DNA of 64,000 nt from Lachnospiraceae bacterium (GTDB lineage Bacteria; Bacillota; Clostridia; Lachnospirales; Lachnospiraceae). Below are positions 46,925 to 56,096 of the stretch, one piece after another. The stretch is taken from the NCBI GenBank assembly GCA_016283575.1, contig JAEEND010000022.1:62001-126000 (forward strand), given 5' to 3'. Position 1 is the first letter of the stretch, and every line of letters begins with the position of its first letter. Under the pieces are notes generated by a model, which was given only the letters and a program-made list of their open reading frames with translations, did no database searches and was not told the origin of the DNA. Made by a program: the position numbers and the translations under genes.

Positions 46925-46984
46925 TATTTCAGATTAATTATTTGCAAATCACTCAAAATTATGATTTTCATAAGAGGTGATACC

Positions 46985-47341
46985 ATGAAAAAGGAGCGGA
47001 TTGAAAGCTTAAAAAGTCTGGGCGTTGATCTTGACGAAACGCTTGAACGCTTTGTCGGAAACGAAGATTTATATTTTAAGTGTCTGAATAAATTTTTAAA
47101 TGATAAAAATTATGGGCATTTAATGGAGGCAATTAAGGATGAAGATTCTTCAGAAGCTTTTGAAGCCGCCCATGCCCTTAAAGGTGTTTCCGCAAATCTC
47201 GGCCTTGATAATCTATATGAAGAGATGAAAGTCATAACCGAAGTTTTCAGAGCAGGTTCCCTTGATTATGATCCTGACAATTTTGAGAAAATGAAGCAAG
47301 AGTATAAACGGGCAATGAATACCATCGAAGGGTTTAAGTAA
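46985..47341 (+). CDS. Hpt (histidine phosphotransfer) domain protein
   Basis: AFEAAHALKGVSANLGLDNLYEEMKVI (HxLKG motif). ATG 46985 with gaggtg RBS. Confidence 0.88.
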   Translation: MKKERIESLKSLGVDLDETLERFVGNEDLYFKCLNKFLNDKNYGHLMEAIKDEDSSEAFEAAHALKGVSANLGLDNLYEEMKVITEVFRAGSLDYDPDNFEKMKQEYKRAMNTIEGFK

Positions 47342-47407: not shown

Positions 47408-47458
47408 TAAAGCTCCCATCGGGAAACGTATATGTTTCCCGATGGGGGCTTTATATAT
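47408..47458. terminator. Long intergenic inverted repeat, probable terminator
   Basis: aaagctcccatcgggaaac-gtatat-gtttcccgatgggggcttt. Confidence 0.75.
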
Positions 47459-47635: not shown

Positions 47636-48466
47636 ATGGATCAGAAATTAAAGAATGAAGTTATAAAAGAAATAAAAAGGCAACAGCGAAATCGCAATAT
47701 TTTAGTGCTCTCTCTTTTGCTGGTGGGTCTTCTTTCCATTGGCTATTTTGTTAAATATTATTCCGAAACCGCCAGGACCGAGCGTGAGACCAATAAATGG
47801 TCTGAACTTAAGGATTCGGATTTAAACACTTCATTATCCGTCAAACCCGTTGTGAGACGTGAGTACGAAGAAGACATAGTTATCCCGGATATCCTTGAAG
47901 AATATAAAATTTTATATAATAAGAATAAAAGTCTAATAGGATGGATCAAAATTGCCGATACTAATATTGATTATCCGGTTATGCAAACCGTGAATAATGA
48001 TTATTATCTAAAGCATAATTTTGATCAGGAAGAAGATAAGAACGGCTGTATTTTTCTTGATAAGGATTGTGATGTTATTAAGGGGAATACCAATTTCATA
48101 ATTTACGGACATCATATGAAAAGCGGTAAGATGTTCGGCGGTTTAAGCAAATACGCGAACCAGGACTATTATGAAGAGCATAAGACAGTCACTTTTGATA
48201 CCATTTACGAAAAAGGCACCTATGAAGTAATGTATGCCTTCAGATCGAGACTTTATAACTCCGACGAGATCGTATTTAAGTACTATCAGTTTATAGATGC
48301 CAATTCCGAAGAAGAATTCAACTCCGCCATGGAGGAAATGGCTGAGATGAGCCTCATTGATACCGGTGTTACGGCTCATTACGGAGATCAGCTTTTGACT
48401 CTTTCCACCTGCGATTATCAGGAAAGTAATGGAAGATTCGCAGTTGTATGCAAAAAAATTGATTAG
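47636..48466 (+). CDS. Class B sortase
   Basis: N-terminal TM; GWIKIADTNIDYPVMQTVNNDYYLKHNF, FIIYGHHM, LLTLSTCDYQESNGRFAVV (His/Cys/Arg triad). Start could also be TTG 47630. Confidence 0.92.
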   Translation: MDQKLKNEVIKEIKRQQRNRNILVLSLLLVGLLSIGYFVKYYSETARTERETNKWSELKDSDLNTSLSVKPVVRREYEEDIVIPDILEEYKILYNKNKSLIGWIKIADTNIDYPVMQTVNNDYYLKHNFDQEEDKNGCIFLDKDCDVIKGNTNFIIYGHHMKSGKMFGGLSKYANQDYYEEHKTVTFDTIYEKGTYEVMYAFRSRLYNSDEIVFKYYQFIDANSEEEFNSAMEEMAEMSLIDTGVTAHYGDQLLTLSTCDYQESNGRFAVVCKKID

Positions 48467-48507
48467 ACAAGACACAGATTTAAGTAGATTTTGGGAGGAA
48501 ATGCTTA

Positions 48508-51500
48508 ATGGGATTACTAAGAAAAGGTAAGGGGCTTTCAAGAAGAGCGAAGAAGACCATTCGTCGCTCTATTTCCGGTGTCTGCATGGCTACGGCAATT
48601 ATCGTTGCTTTGGTACCTGCCGAGGTGTCGAGAGGTTATTCGACAATACCTGCAGATAAGGTCGCCGAAAATGATTACACTTACGGTGTAAAGGATGACG
48701 GTACCGATGATACTGACCTTGAAATCGAGGGAAATTCATTTAAACTGGACCGTTATGATTTTACTACATCCAAAGCCTACAATGACGATCACTCAGAGCG
48801 CGCCACATATAAGACCAAGTATGTGCGTCAGTCTTCCGACGGTTCTTTTGAATACGGATGGCAGTTTGTAATTTATCAGGATAACTATAAAGGCGTTAAC
48901 TATGGTATTATCTGTGATTACAACTCCAGTTATCAGGCCAATACTCTTGAAATAGCAAAATCCCTCCCTTATGAATATACAACCGTTACAAAGGATGAAT
49001 TTAACGCATTCTTTGCAAATTATCAGAATACCTATGATGAGTATGTGGAAAATCCTTCAAACGGAATCACTTTTAACATTCCCGGACATGCTAATCCTTA
49101 TAAAGCGCGTTTCAGCATGAAGAAACCCGCCAATTCCGTTCTTACGGATTCCGATGAGTATTATCTTAAAAAGTACTTTAATGATGAATACTTATTGCAT
49201 GTTGAATTATACAGACAGTGGGAAGCTTCCGTTGCAGCCTACGAACAGTATCTTCACAATGTTGAACTTTATGAAAACGGACAGCTGGCACAGGAGCCTG
49301 CCGTTGTTCAGCCGCCGGATGAAGAACCCGAACTTTCTAAGTGGGTTAAGGATATTAAGAATGATGATAACACAGACAGTTTAAGACGTGTATTCTTCTG
49401 CGAAGTTAACCAGGCCTATAATACCAAGGTTAAGGGCTATACCCTTGTGGAAGTTAAAGACTATGTAAATCCTGCAACCGGCATTGAAACTCCCAAGATT
49501 TATCTTGCTCAGGGCGTGCCCAATCCCAATAATGACGCAAGCATTCCTAATGATAAGTTTGGTTTCCATGTAGATGCTTCCACCGATATTATTGCCATCG
49601 GTAATCAGGCATTTAAGGGAACTACCAATGTATATGATCTTCAGTTATCTGATGACCTTGCATTTGTAGGAGATGAAGCATTTAAGGATTCATTCGTACG
49701 TTCCATTGCATTCTCCAATGTTAAAAACATCGGTAACAGAGCATTTAAGTCATGTACACAGCTTACCAATATTACTTTTGATAACGGTACCACCATAATC
49801 GGTACTGAGGCATTTTACGGTTCCGGTTTAAGAAAGGTTTCATTCCCTTATTCCATTAAGGAAATCGGCCCCGGTGCATTTGCTAACTGTGCATATCTTG
49901 CCGAGATCGACCTTTCTCAGGTAGCTCAGGACGGAGCATCCATTGACGGATTTGCTTTCTATGATGATGTTGCACTTAATAAGATTCAGTTTTCAGATAC
50001 CATTGCAACCATCGGAGATGCTGCATTTGCATGTGTAAAGGGTGAAACCGGTACATTGACCGAATTCCAGTTCCCCGATAATGTTACATCCATCGGAGAT
50101 TTTGTGGTTGCCGGCCGTGCCAACTTAAGTAAGGTTATTATGCCTCGTAACTTAGGTAAGTCAGCTTCACCTGTAGTTACTCTTAAAGAAAATATCTTCA
50201 GAAACTGCTTTAATCTCGAATGCCTTGAATTCCCTGATGACTGCGGTTATCTGAATTTTAAAGAATGTGATGATATATTCACATCAATTACCAAGAAGAC
50301 CTTTTATGTAAAGGGTCCGGAAAATAACTCTGCAAAGACTCCCGCAAGTCCCAGGATCAGTACCTGGGGTAAAAGAAACGGACTTGGGGAAATGGTTCCT
50401 TATGTTTATGTAGATGAAAACGGTAAGACTCTTTATGAGATCAGTGATGAAACATACATCCTTGTTATCGACGGAGAGGGCGTATTGCAGTCCTGTAAAT
50501 TTGTTCCGGATCCCGATGTTGTTGTAGGACCTTTCGATATGGTTGTGCCCAGCAAGGTTGGTCAGACTGCGGTTACGGGTATTGCTACAGACTGTTTCTC
50601 GGATCTTGATGTTAAAAACAACATGGAAAGTCTTGTTATTGAAGATGATACCATTTCAGCCATTGCCGACAGCGCATTTAAGAATTTTAAGAATCTTAAA
50701 TATGTGGAACTCGGCAATACCGTTACTCGGATCGGAGCTTCCGCTTTTGAAGGCTGCGATAAGTTAACCCATGTTAAGTTCCATACACCTAAAAACGGAT
50801 ACTCAGATTTTCCTATTGATAATTTAGGTGCAAATGCTTTTGCTACAGGTGCATCAAGCCTTGTTTTTGAAGGTGATATAGATTCAAATTACGGCCCCTT
50901 TAAATGGGCTATGGATGTTAATAACTTTGTAGATGCCGATGAAGGTATAAGAGTATGTTATTATACCGGAGCTCCCGATTATCTTACCGTAATTGTTGAT
51001 AATAAGAACGGTTATCCCACTCTTATCAATTATCCTCATTACGATGAACTTAATGAGCATTCCGGCACTACCAATGATACCCATCCTCTTACCGAAAGAT
51101 ATGAGCACTTAGGTGAAGAAATTACCGAAAATGGTGAATTATATATTTATTCCACCACAGCCTATGAAGATAAGCTCATTGATAAGACTCTTAATATTAA
51201 GGTTCCTGACGGAATTAAGAGCATCGATGTAAAGGGTTACATGACCAACAATTCACTTGCAAACCCTGATTATTCATCGAATCTTTCAAATACAAAGAAT
51301 GTGGCAACTTATTTTGCCAATGCTTCATCCCCCGTATTCTGTAAGTATTACAACACCTACAGAGACTATGGTTTATTTAACGGTTACTATGGTAACGAAA
51401 CAGATAATGAGGGAAAGAAGAAGGAATACAGCTCAGTAACGGAACCTGACAGAACCAATGCACTTAAATACGAAACCGATTCAAGAGGTAATGACCGTAT

Positions 51501-53319
51501 TGATTCAATTGATCTGAATTCCGTAATTTACCTTCCCGAATATGCTTTCTATTCCTGTGAAAAGCTGTCAAAAATGTCACTCGGCGCGGATCTTGACACC
51601 ATGGGACCTGCTCCTTTTACGGGATGTAACAACTTGACTTCCGTAGGCGGTACAACCGATGACTTTACCTGCACCAACGGTATCGTTTATTCCGTTAATG
51701 AAGACGGATCTTACAATATAGTTGAAGTACTTTCATCAAGAGGTCTTTCCGTAGGAAGCCAGAAGATTAAAGTGAGTGATGAAGATCCGAATCTTGCAAA
51801 GGTATCAACTATTTCAGACGGTGCTTTTGAAAATTGTGATTATATTACAGGTGTCAACTTCCAGGATATGAATCTTTTAGAGAACATTCCCGACACCTGC
51901 TTTAAGGATTGTAATAAACTAAATCAGATCATCCTGCCTGAAAACATTACCGAAGTAGGTCATAAGGCCTTTGCCAATACTATGGAAGGTATAGAAGTAG
52001 TATTCTACGGCGAAGAAGTTTATATTCCTCATGACGCTTTTGACGGACTTTCTTCTTTCAGAGTTATTTCTTATGAAGATTCCGCAGTAAGAAAAGCAGC
52101 AAGGGACTTAGGCGCTGATGTTTCAGAAGTACTTGATGACACAGTTAAAGTACAGTTCTTTGATTATGACGGTAAAGAATTGTCACCCATTATATTCGTA
52201 ACGGAAGGAGGAGATGTTTCTTTATCAGACATCCCCGAAAATCCTGAAAGAGAAGGATATAAATTCGTCGGCTGGAACAAAGAACTTACCAATATCAAAA
52301 CTGATACTGTTGTAGTTGCAACTTACGAACGTGTTCCCGGTACCGTTGATCCCGATGATCCCGGTACAAGCACTTCCGATCCCGGAAACGGTAACAGTAC
52401 AAGTAATCCTACAAGCAATTCCAACAGTACATCAAATACTCAGTTATATACTTTGACGGTAACTAACGGTAACGGAAGCGGAAGCTATGCTGCCGGTGCA
52501 ACTGTTATCATTACATGTACCAATCCTCCCGCGGGACAGGTATTCGATAAGTGGGTTCCCGGTTCCGATGATCTTGGAATTGCAAGTGTAAATGTGGCTG
52601 CAACAACATTAGTAATGCCTGCTCACGAAGCAACTGTACAGGCGACATTTAAGAATGCGCCCACCAATACATCAAACAGCGGTTCCAACAACGGCGGAAG
52701 CACCAGTACCAGTACCACGACTTCAACCGGAAATAACAATAACGGTTCCAGCGTTATTATTTCAAAGAACGGCATATCCAATAAAGAACTTGCATCTGCA
52801 ACGGTTTCTGGTTCTACAGATAATTACATCATAAGGATCGCAGAGACAACAGCAGCTACTGCCGCAGTTGAAAAGGCTCTTACCAATGAATACGGAAGTC
52901 TTGATAATGTACGTTACAGTGCAATGGATATAACACTTTATGATGCAACGGGACAGAATCAGATCACTGATTATTCCGGCCTCAGCATTGCTATCACAAT
53001 GCCGTTACCCGATGTAATGACCAAGTATGCAGGTAACAATAAGGTCGCAGGCGTTGTAAATGAAAAGCTTGATAAGCTTTCTCCTAAATTCACAACCATT
53101 GACGGCGTATCCTGCATTACATTTACAGCGACTCACTTCTCACCGTATACAATCTATGTAAACGTTGAGAATATGGGTGAAAGTGTTACGGATGAATCTC
53201 CCAAGACAGCGGACGGAATCCATCCCAAGTGGTTCCTGGTATTCGGTCTTGCAGCACTCAGTATCGGACTATTCTTTATGAAGGATAAGCAGAGCGTTAA
53301 AAATCTGAATCTTGGATAA
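48508..53319 (+). CDS. Large BspA-like leucine-rich-repeat surface protein with InlB-type repeats and C-terminal sorting signal
   Basis: Signal peptide; many LRR_5-like repeats (AFKGTTNVYDLQLSDDLAFVGDEAFKD); FFDYDGKELSPI...PEREGYKFVGWNKE repeat; S/T/N-rich linker; SPKTADGIHPKWF + TM + charged tail. Confidence 0.92.
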   Translation: MGLLRKGKGLSRRAKKTIRRSISGVCMATAIIVALVPAEVSRGYSTIPADKVAENDYTYGVKDDGTDDTDLEIEGNSFKLDRYDFTTSKAYNDDHSERATYKTKYVRQSSDGSFEYGWQFVIYQDNYKGVNYGIICDYNSSYQANTLEIAKSLPYEYTTVTKDEFNAFFANYQNTYDEYVENPSNGITFNIPGHANPYKARFSMKKPANSVLTDSDEYYLKKYFNDEYLLHVELYRQWEASVAAYEQYLHNVELYENGQLAQEPAVVQPPDEEPELSKWVKDIKNDDNTDSLRRVFFCEVNQAYNTKVKGYTLVEVKDYVNPATGIETPKIYLAQGVPNPNNDASIPNDKFGFHVDASTDIIAIGNQAFKGTTNVYDLQLSDDLAFVGDEAFKDSFVRSIAFSNVKNIGNRAFKSCTQLTNITFDNGTTIIGTEAFYGSGLRKVSFPYSIKEIGPGAFANCAYLAEIDLSQVAQDGASIDGFAFYDDVALNKIQFSDTIATIGDAAFACVKGETGTLTEFQFPDNVTSIGDFVVAGRANLSKVIMPRNLGKSASPVVTLKENIFRNCFNLECLEFPDDCGYLNFKECDDIFTSITKKTFYVKGPENNSAKTPASPRISTWGKRNGLGEMVPYVYVDENGKTLYEISDETYILVIDGEGVLQSCKFVPDPDVVVGPFDMVVPSKVGQTAVTGIATDCFSDLDVKNNMESLVIEDDTISAIADSAFKNFKNLKYVELGNTVTRIGASAFEGCDKLTHVKFHTPKNGYSDFPIDNLGANAFATGASSLVFEGDIDSNYGPFKWAMDVNNFVDADEGIRVCYYTGAPDYLTVIVDNKNGYPTLINYPHYDELNEHSGTTNDTHPLTERYEHLGEEITENGELYIYSTTAYEDKLIDKTLNIKVPDGIKSIDVKGYMTNNSLANPDYSSNLSNTKNVATYFANASSPVFCKYYNTYRDYGLFNGYYGNETDNEGKKKEYSSVTEPDRTNALKYETDSRGNDRIDSIDLNSVIYLPEYAFYSCEKLSKMSLGADLDTMGPAPFTGCNNLTSVGGTTDDFTCTNGIVYSVNEDGSYNIVEVLSSRGLSVGSQKIKVSDEDPNLAKVSTISDGAFENCDYITGVNFQDMNLLENIPDTCFKDCNKLNQIILPENITEVGHKAFANTMEGIEVVFYGEEVYIPHDAFDGLSSFRVISYEDSAVRKAARDLGADVSEVLDDTVKVQFFDYDGKELSPIIFVTEGGDVSLSDIPENPEREGYKFVGWNKELTNIKTDTVVVATYERVPGTVDPDDPGTSTSDPGNGNSTSNPTSNSNSTSNTQLYTLTVTNGNGSGSYAAGATVIITCTNPPAGQVFDKWVPGSDDLGIASVNVAATTLVMPAHEATVQATFKNAPTNTSNSGSNNGGSTSTSTTTSTGNNNNGSSVIISKNGISNKELASATVSGSTDNYIIRIAETTAATAAVEKALTNEYGSLDNVRYSAMDITLYDATGQNQITDYSGLSIAITMPLPDVMTKYAGNNKVAGVVNEKLDKLSPKFTTIDGVSCITFTATHFSPYTIYVNVENMGESVTDESPKTADGIHPKWFLVFGLAALSIGLFFMKDKQSVKNLNLG

Positions 53320-53324
53320 GGTAT

Positions 53325-56027
53325 ATGAATAAGCGAAGCGTTAGAAGAATTATTGGCGCGTGTTTATTGATTCTTTCACTGATCATAGTAATGATCCCTG
53401 CTGAAGAATCCGCCGCCGAAACTTCCAAAACATCCGATTTTCAGTTAAACGGAGACATATTGATAAAATATACAGGCACGGCCGATACCGTGTCTGTTCC
53501 TAATGGTGTTAAGAAGATCGGTGAGGAGGCCTTTGCCGACAATTCCTATATCAAGACACTTAAATTATCATCTTCCGTAGAAGAGATCGCTTACGGCGCA
53601 TTTGCAAATTGTAATAATCTTACCAAGGTTGAAATCCCTGATAATGTTGAAACTATCGGAAGTGCGGCATTTTCCAATTGTACCGCCCTTAATACCGTAT
53701 CCATCGGTGCCGGCGTTAAATCCATGGGTACCGGCGTCTTTGTGGGAGACAAGGCTCTTACAACATTTTCAATAAGTGATAAAAATACAAAATTTATTTA
53801 TAAAGACGGTGTCATTTATGATAACAAAAGTGAGACCATAATCTTTGTTCTGCCTGCCAGAAAGGGCGATTCCTATACCATGCCCAATTCGGTAAAAGAA
53901 ATATATCCCTATGCTTTTTATGGTAGCAGCAATATTAAAGATATTACCGTTTCCAATACTATTTACGAAATTCCTGCTTATGCATTTTCATATTGCAATG
54001 GATTAAAGGCTGTCAACCTCCCTTATTCAGTAAACATTATCGATGTTAAAGCTTTTGAAAACTGCGTTAATCTTCAAGACGTAACTATTCCCGAATCTGT
54101 TAATTTTATTCATCCCACAGCCTTTGACGGTTGCCCGAAGCTTAATATTATTGCAAAAGAAGGTACTTATGCCTATAACTGGTTTAAGAATTTTGATAAA
54201 TCCAATGTGGCAATAATCGACAATGAAGATAATGACAGTTCCGGAAACAAGAATAATGGTTCGGAAGAAGAACCGGAAGAAGATAATTATTACAATTCTC
54301 ATAAGATTATTTATAATCCCGATGATTATATGGCTGAAACCATAGTTGCCGGTCGTCATGCCGTTTTCTTTATTGATAATACCAGACCTACCGTTTTGGA
54401 AGGTGAGCTTGGTACCAATATGCCTGCAGTAAGTGAAGGACTTGATGAATTATTGAATAATGAAAATCGCGGAAAGGGAGTATCCCTTCCTAAATTCACC
54501 ATTATTGACGGTTCTGTTGCGGGAAAGGCTTTTTACGGTGATACCGATTTATATTCCTATGAATTTCCTGAAGGAATCAAATCCATCGGTGATTTTTCTT
54601 TTGCCCGAAGTGCATTAAAACAGATCACTATTCCCGATGGAGTTACACATATTGGTTATGGCGCGTTCTATCACTGCGACGATCTTGTTAAGATCGTGGT
54701 ACCTAAAACCGTTACGGAAATCGAACCATATGCCTTTGATAATACCCGTATGCTGGAGAATTTCATGCTGTATGGAGATGAAAGCTTCATGATCCTCGGT
54801 GACGGGATCCTTACAGCCTACCGCGGTACAGGTTCAAGTGTAACAATCCCTGACACTGTTAAGAAAATAGGCCCCGATGTATTTTCTAATCATACTGAAA
54901 TAACTTCCGTAAATATTCCTGACTCTGTAACAGAAGTAGGAGAGGGAGCCTTTGCGGGGTGCAGCAGCTTAGCCAATGTGAATGGCGGAATGAACATTGA
55001 AAAGATAAGTGACAGAGCCTTTGCCGGATGTCCTCTTGATAATATCCGCATGATGGATACTGTAAAAGAAGTAGGATTAAAGGCTTTTGATTATACTTCT
55101 GCAGGATTGCCTGACGAAAGAAAGCTTGTTTATTTCCACGGAAATGGGCTTCCTTCTTTAGGTATTAGTAAGACAACCACGCGTTTAAGTAATGATTCTT
55201 TCAGAAAAGATGCCTTTGAAGGCGTTAAGGTTGCTGTTATTCAGAGCGAGGATATCATACGTAACGGCACCTGCCTTGATCGTAATCTTTCCGGTTTTTC
55301 AGGGCTTATATGTGTTGTTGATGATCCTAATACTGATTATGAAAACGGAACTTTGAAAATTATAGATTGTACATTATCAAGTGAAGAAGCAAGTATTTTT
55401 ACAGTGCCTGATACCATGTATATATATGGTAAAGCCTACAGATTTAAAGATACAGAACTTGAAAATGTACTTAACATGGCTAAAGACGGAGCTTACGCCG
55501 GCGAAGCTGTTGCCGGTAATCCCGTTACTTTTGCGGGAAGCGATGATAAGTATTATTTAAGGATTTCAGATGATAATACTGAATATGTAAAAGAAGCATA
55601 TAAGAGAATATTCGGCGAAACCGCTCCCGGTAACTTTTACGGATTCAAGATCGAATTAAAGGATGGAAAAACAGGAACGGAGATTACCAAGTTCGGTAAG
55701 CAGAAATTAAATGTTACTGTTTTGATACCGGAAAACATGCCTGCAAAAAATATCCATGTTATCTGTACCGATGAAAATCTTCAGTTAGAAGATCTTTCAT
55801 ATGAAAAAACAGAAGTAGATAATAAACTTGCTGTTTCTTTTGATATAACCCATACAGGTCATTATGGATTATATTCATATTCATCGGGTGCTTCATCCGA
55901 TGGAGAACTTGACGATTCCCCCGATACGGGAGACCCCATTCATCCTAAATACTTCCTGGCACTTGGTGTATTTGCCATCGCCATGGCACTTCTTTTATAC
56001 AGGTCGAAAAAGGATATGGCTATTTAA
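53325..56027 (+). CDS. BspA-like leucine-rich-repeat surface protein with C-terminal sorting signal
   Basis: Signal peptide; LRR_5-like repeats (KIGEEAFADNSYIKTLKLSSSVEEIAYGAFANCNNLTKVEIPDNVETIG); SPDTGDPIHPKYF + TM + RSKKDMAI. Confidence 0.92.
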   Translation: MNKRSVRRIIGACLLILSLIIVMIPAEESAAETSKTSDFQLNGDILIKYTGTADTVSVPNGVKKIGEEAFADNSYIKTLKLSSSVEEIAYGAFANCNNLTKVEIPDNVETIGSAAFSNCTALNTVSIGAGVKSMGTGVFVGDKALTTFSISDKNTKFIYKDGVIYDNKSETIIFVLPARKGDSYTMPNSVKEIYPYAFYGSSNIKDITVSNTIYEIPAYAFSYCNGLKAVNLPYSVNIIDVKAFENCVNLQDVTIPESVNFIHPTAFDGCPKLNIIAKEGTYAYNWFKNFDKSNVAIIDNEDNDSSGNKNNGSEEEPEEDNYYNSHKIIYNPDDYMAETIVAGRHAVFFIDNTRPTVLEGELGTNMPAVSEGLDELLNNENRGKGVSLPKFTIIDGSVAGKAFYGDTDLYSYEFPEGIKSIGDFSFARSALKQITIPDGVTHIGYGAFYHCDDLVKIVVPKTVTEIEPYAFDNTRMLENFMLYGDESFMILGDGILTAYRGTGSSVTIPDTVKKIGPDVFSNHTEITSVNIPDSVTEVGEGAFAGCSSLANVNGGMNIEKISDRAFAGCPLDNIRMMDTVKEVGLKAFDYTSAGLPDERKLVYFHGNGLPSLGISKTTTRLSNDSFRKDAFEGVKVAVIQSEDIIRNGTCLDRNLSGFSGLICVVDDPNTDYENGTLKIIDCTLSSEEASIFTVPDTMYIYGKAYRFKDTELENVLNMAKDGAYAGEAVAGNPVTFAGSDDKYYLRISDDNTEYVKEAYKRIFGETAPGNFYGFKIELKDGKTGTEITKFGKQKLNVTVLIPENMPAKNIHVICTDENLQLEDLSYEKTEVDNKLAVSFDITHTGHYGLYSYSSGASSDGELDDSPDTGDPIHPKYFLALGVFAIAMALLLYRSKKDMAI

Positions 56028-56066
56028 GATGTAAACGTTAGAAGAATAAGTAATAAGTAAATTTAG

Positions 56067-56096
56067 CGCAGCAACTTTGTTTGCTGCGTTTTTTAT
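56067..56096 (+). terminator. Terminator after LRR genes
   Basis: cgcagcaa-actttgt-ttgctgcgttttttat. Confidence 0.85.

Follow-up and report, generated by a model that had tools for sequence, protein, structure and literature searches.

Genetic organization of the sortase cassette

We analysed a window of 64,000 nucleotides from the 2.2-Mb assembly (97.5% complete) of a Lachnospiraceae bacterium; coordinates refer to this window, and the cassette features lie on its forward strand. Positions 47636–56027 hold an operon-like cassette, in which a class B sortase (SrtB) gene is followed by two genes for BspA-type LRR surface proteins. The SrtB gene (47636–48466, ATG start) encodes 276 amino acids, with an N-terminal membrane helix and a sortase domain. 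LRR1 (48508–53319) is a secreted protein of 1603 amino acids with BspA-type LRRs (PF13306), an InlB-like repeat (PF18998) and a sorting signal, and LRR2 (53325–56027) is a secreted protein of 900 amino acids with BspA-type LRRs (PF13306) and a sorting signal. By inspection, both carry signal peptides. The ORF positions show the three genes to be co-directional with gaps of 41 and 5 bases, LRR2 starting 5 bases past the LRR1 stop.

A hairpin scan found terminator-like hairpins on both sides of the cassette. The upstream one (47408–47453), a strong hairpin with a 20-pair stem and a weak T-tract, closes the preceding transcription unit, while the one 3' of LRR2 (56065–56090) is accompanied by a T run and marks the end of the unit. 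An earlier note on this DNA had described the locus as self-contained; this holds for the terminators but not for the enzyme, which is not the genome's sole SrtB. The Rfam search gave no match within the cassette region. A stand-alone Hpt-domain protein gene is located directly upstream of the cassette (46979–47341), with the strong hairpin between them. At the position 3' of LRR2, three relatives have a Peptidase_S8 (subtilisin-like) gene (L018:18241-19173, L024:18611-19537 and L030:18646-19596), whose product could trim or shed anchored proteins; unlike in these relatives, no Peptidase_S8 gene occupies this position in the window.

The cassette enzyme is a class B sortase

SrtB scored 161.7 bits against the 'class B sortase' model TIGR03064 (curated cut-off 153.75) and matched PF04203 in the Pfam search. 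Alignment with solved SrtBs located the catalytic residues His159 (48110–48112), Cys259 within TLSTC (48410–48412) and Arg267 (48434–48436). The histidine is invariant in 42 relatives, and the cysteine and arginine are likewise invariant among relatives, so that the His-Cys-Arg triad and the TLxTC signature of class B sortases are both present. The top 19 PDB matches of the AlphaFold model (pLDDT 84.5) are all SrtB structures (including 2oqw and 4lfd). In this model, a helix (225-238) lies between strands 195-204 and 253-258 and helices are present at the N-terminus, corresponding to the long helix between strands 6 and 7 and the N-terminal helical extension of the SrtB fold. By each of these measures, the enzyme is a class B sortase.

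Residues 36-42 (GYFVKYY; 47741–47761) are an aromatic patch on the membrane helix of the sortase, at its outer end. The juxtamembrane Y...Y pattern is found in 90 of the 94 members of the sortase clade described below, in 6 of 42 other SrtBs and in none of the six SrtBs of a separate clade (DPR clade). Across the clade, the positions of the GYF patch are occupied by G in 71, Y in 80 and F in 63 of 80 sequences. The patch is a clade marker, which is no proof of substrate contact.

Extended sorting signals of LRR1 and LRR2

The C-terminus reads ESPKTADGIHPKWF in LRR1 and DSPDTGDPIHPKYF in LRR2, and in both a membrane segment with a basic tail comes next (in LRR1, LVFGLAALSIGLFFMKDKQSVKNLNLG, 53236–53316, as read from the sequence, with a hydrophobicity filter applied to its relatives). 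The shared extended tails that the earlier note had reported behind the SrtB gene, SPKTADGIHPKWF from 53197 and SPDTGDPIHPKYF from 55917, are indeed there, and they are the only two in the genome. When T[GA]DxIHPK[WY]F was searched as a degenerate DNA pattern allowing as many as three mismatches, the 2.2 Mb gave exactly two sites, both of them cassette tails; the reversed control gave none. On the basis of the sequence, the DNA pattern and the family alignment, the LRR1 signal is SPKTADGIHPKWF (53197–53235), with a predicted cut after base 53208 and HPKWF at 53221–53235. The LRR2 signal, from the sequence and the DNA pattern, is SPDTGDPIHPKYF (55917–55955), with a predicted cut after base 55928 and HPKYF at 55941–55955.

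We then compared 58 distinct LRR1 tails and 33 distinct LRR2 tails. In general, the signal reads [ST]P[KDN..]T[GA][DE], then 1-3 residues, then xPK[W]F. P4 is nearly always T or S, T being commoner than S in the relatives' LRR1, and P2 is mostly K in LRR1 tails and D or N in LRR2 tails. P1' is G, with alanine in three LRR1 tails, and P2' is D or E in every collected tail. The distance from TG[DE] to xPK varies by up to two residues. The x of xPK is mostly H, with Q, E, S, N, A or D as alternatives, the P and K are near-invariant, the next residue is mostly W, and the one after it is F, I, V or L. The shared core with IHPK proposed earlier is thus conserved as an extended block, but its fixed part is P-K, its H is variable, and its P4 is more often T in the relatives' LRR1. 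Most tails have the membrane segment's end 16-17 residues past xPK, while the distance from the cut site varies. The regular expression used to collect the tails demands P-[KRG], which mildly conditions these counts at that step; a hydrophobic-tail filter lacking this requirement gave the same picture.

The earlier note had placed the alanine of SPKTA at P1. Sortases cut between T and G, as C. difficile SrtB does (PMC4155245), so the residue is P1'. That this sortase accepts it is plausible from the sequences, since alanine recurs at this site in relatives' LRR1 and in the DPR clade. Such acceptance has a precedent, as B. anthracis SrtA cleaves LPNTA (according to PMC4155245). SPDTG of LRR2 is an SrtB signal of the (S/P)PXTG type and SPKTA of LRR1 is nearly so, differing by the A at P1'; the relatives mostly have [ST]PKTG. 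Against the LPXTG anchor model PF00746, LRR2 reached 13.7 bits (cut-off 20) and LRR1 gave no match, the best score in the genome being 17.9. None of the curated models searched covers the extended signal, and our literature search, with subscription papers outside its scope, found no paper with IHPKWF-type signals and none on a Lachnospiraceae sortase/LRR locus.

LRR1 and LRR2 also share a membrane-proximal beta domain (52795–53160 in LRR1 and 55521–55877 in LRR2), which is homologous between the two proteins (hhalign probability 99.5, E 2e-23) and has no match in Pfam. The LRR1 domain was modelled with a pLDDT of 89.8; its fold matches are weak and ZU5-like, with none below E 0.001.

The signal follows one sortase clade

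We investigated the co-occurrence of sortase and tail in 150 genomes of Lachnospiraceae, including the genome studied here. Any SrtB is uninformative for this comparison, being present in 133 of the 150 genomes. A clade-specific model (A3) was used instead, which gave 343-467 bits for the clade and 300 bits or less for all other SrtBs, and strong tails were those with E below 1e-9. The clade sortase is found in 19 genomes and the tail in 18; both are found in these 18, and no genome has the tail without the clade sortase (Fisher p ~2e-22, a value that overstates independence owing to kinship among the genomes). The locus of the remaining clade genome (G137) is cut off by a contig end shortly after LRR1 begins. 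An absence of co-occurrence, which the earlier note had named as grounds for abandoning its proposal, was therefore not what the 150 genomes showed. In two of the 18 genomes with the tail the block is degenerate, reading PLKWF in G079 and TQTKW in G045; the sortases of both diverge close to the clade's base. In G128 and G079, the sortase and the tailed LRR1 are on different contigs and both are retained, indicating that the association outlasts loss of linkage. A class-wide sample of 391 genomes yielded no strong tail outside the Lachnospiraceae.

Eighty related sortase loci were also gathered by sortase similarity alone, with the tails unused. Essentially every complete next gene in these loci has the LRR1 tail, and 33 loci also have the LRR2 tail. 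The substrates are mostly orthologs across genomes, so that common descent accounts for part of the co-occurrence and of the likeness among tails.

In a tree of 93 SrtBs (a quick method, with unsure long branches outside the clade), all sortases linked to HPK tails fall inside one clade of 45 rows (SH-aLRT 99); the five remaining rows are contig-cut or unlinked loci from genomes that carry the tail. The DPR clade is separate (SH-aLRT 99) and consists of six SrtBs (loci L157, L166, L170, L175, L184 and L190). Their neighbours are shorter proteins, five of the six with BspA-type LRRs, with ends such as ATPKTADGDIDPRYF; most have TAD-x-DPRYF-like tails, and alanine stands at P1' in most of this clade. 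Two sortase clades are thus each accompanied by a form of the block, one by xPKWF and the second by the related xPRYF.

Many of the sampled Lachnospiraceae have 2-8 SrtB matches per genome, and the other SrtBs in genomes with the tail adjoin PKTG[DE] tails without PKWF, such as VPKTGDSLPIALPL or SPKTGETIPVAGCL. In the genome studied here, a PF04203 search had suggested a single sortase; this was rejected, as TIGR03064 gives two matches and the second was read directly. This second SrtB (G000:C2:258947-259825) is on another contig and has 42% identity to the cassette SrtB over 189 residues. It is directly followed, in its own cassette (L263:4948-6654, G000:C2:258947-260653), by a 272-amino-acid protein ending in SVPKTGGFDFTVVFFAIGF / SVPKTGGFDFTVVFFAIGFVFMIGAIVCSKKMYRNE, a tail of the VPKTGG type. 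Judging from these sequences, a single cell holds two SrtB cassettes that differ in the type of signal.

A conserved block beyond the predicted cut

Within 33 genomes, the mean identity between LRR1 and LRR2 is 25% in the pre-anchor domain and 32% in the membrane segment, compared with 78% in PxTGD and 82% in xPKWF. The high identity of xPKWF beside a decayed pre-anchor domain indicates that the block, although on the discarded side of the predicted cut, is held by selection. The pre-anchor domains of LRR1 and LRR2 are homologous, and the tails might accordingly be alike through common descent of a functionless C-terminal module, but this reading hardly survives the contrast of 25% with 82%.

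That the sortase anchors its two neighbours, as previously proposed, is well supported by co-occurrence and clade linkage, and we regard cleavage of LRR1 and LRR2 by this SrtB as very probable. LRR1 and LRR2 would be exported and retained by their C-terminal membrane segments, and the neighbouring SrtB would cut [ST]P[KD]T[GA]D after its second T, ahead of G/A. By analogy with class B sortase chemistry, the acyl-enzyme would then pass the two proteins to peptidoglycan. The conservation and clade specificity of xPKWF favour a role in sorting, and it is likely that the block matters for this process in some way. Lying immediately ahead of the membrane segment, it would most likely set the height of the cut site above the membrane. 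In this reading, xPKWF is fixed relative to the membrane and not to the cut, and the variable spacing between block and cut makes sense.

The block may further dock on the juxtamembrane helix of the sortase (GYFxxYxY) while SPxTGD fills the active-site groove; GYFxxY of the sortase and PKWF of the substrate are at about equal height relative to the membrane. In work on B. anthracis SrtB, models suggested membrane-helix contacts of sortase and substrate, and Tyr39 of the N-terminal helix, a class B feature, was proposed to touch the Asp at P2' (PMC11987632). We put the chance that xPKWF contacts the sortase, and not the lipid interface only, at slightly under even. More tentatively, the signal could consist of two parts, an active-site pentapeptide and an xPKWF block docking on GYFxxYxY, which would give each clade its private clients, with xPRYF serving the second clade.

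Alternatively, xPKWF could be a membrane-interface element only, its charge and aromatic belt fixing the start of the stop-transfer segment while the sortase reads SPxTGD alone. Trp or Phe is commonly found at the interface ahead of a membrane segment, and a Trp adjoining the segment is ordinary. The tight spacing of xPK from the membrane segment's end, beside a variable distance to the cut, is as expected for such an element. The relatives in which LRR2 has lost its sorting motif (L030, L033-L036, L038, L040, L043, L047 and others) speak on both sides. They comprise a form that keeps the membrane segment (16 loci, about one event) and a truncated form without it (11 loci, few events). In the former, most retain the boundary Trp or another aromatic, but P-K went together with PxTGD. 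We do not count the 16 losses as independent cases; as about one event, they are weak evidence. Other SrtB clients of the same cells, moreover, have membrane segments without PKWF, indicating that insertion does not need it, and the ties of xPKWF to one sortase clade and of xPRYF to a second speak against an interface element alone. We consider this explanation rather unlikely, though it is the strongest of the alternatives.

The earlier note had suggested that the sortase may read IHPK itself, which would make IHPK a rigid continuation of the recognised peptide. The block is conserved and specific to a clade, which speaks for this reading, and the residues sensed by class B sortases include P2' and P3' (PMC11987632). 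In B. anthracis SrtB, sensing has been demonstrated up to P3' only (PMC11987632). However, the 1-3-residue spacing between TGD and xPK and the free replacement of H in both paralogs are unlike fixed subsites. The changing distance to the cleaved bond speaks against reading in rigid subsites, and the observations are best fitted by docking at the membrane interface. What stands of the suggestion is a clade-linked part of the signal, and direct reading appears improbable.

Conservation of a part discarded after sorting needs some reason, and the post-cleavage remnant (GDGIHPKWF plus the membrane segment) might signal to a membrane sensor kinase, for which there is a precedent in Streptococcus gordonii (PMC11502775). 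No sensor kinase was recognised within the cassette, and the membrane segment, which sensing would use, is poorly conserved between the paralogs, making C-peptide signalling very improbable here.

Overall, we favour a dedicated SrtB cassette in which xPKWF probably acts as a clade-specific second part of the signal at the membrane. A class B enzyme with an (S/P)PXTG-like signal is already known; what appears to be new, from the sequences compared, is a juxtamembrane xPKWF block tied to one SrtB clade. To our knowledge, there is no settled account of how cells with several SrtBs, all near P-K-T-G motifs, separate their clients. A conserved block past the cut that is tied to one clade makes this question directly testable, and xPKWF, if its role is borne out, would extend the textbook sorting signal. 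The finding also predicts that a large set of bacteria of the gut and rumen have LRR surface proteins anchored to the wall.

Comparison with known systems

Staphylococcus aureus SrtB, which has the class B fold and catalytic residues in common with the cassette enzyme, recognises NPQTN on a haem-protein client and serves haem uptake. The cassette neighbours contain no NPQTN-like motif and no haem or NEAT domain. They have LRR_5 repeats like the BspA/HupY-type LRR surface adhesins (PF13306, NF047961), but differ in having an SrtB-type sorting signal and their own membrane-proximal domain, and with 51 and 136 bits they are far below the HupY/LrrG cut-off of NF047961 (1250 bits).

Bacillus anthracis SrtB is the best structural match to the cassette SrtB. 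It senses residues beyond the pentapeptide, above all Asp at P2', which it needs (PMC11987632), and this published requirement explains the D or E at P2' in all tails here. Its signal is NPKTG, on haem proteins (PMC11987632), unlike that of the cassette. Clostridioides difficile SrtB and its (S/P)PXTG substrates resemble the cassette in the class B fold, the triad, the SPKTG-D core, the cut between T and G and the small client set (PMC4155245, PMC5118464), although the SrtB model matches the structures from B. anthracis and S. aureus more closely than C. difficile SrtB. None of the listed C. difficile clients is an LRR protein; they comprise hydrolases, collagen-binding proteins and further surface proteins (PMC4155245, PMC5118464), and their tails (for example, SPKTGDNTNLYGLLALL) lack the PKWF block that distinguishes the cassette proteins.
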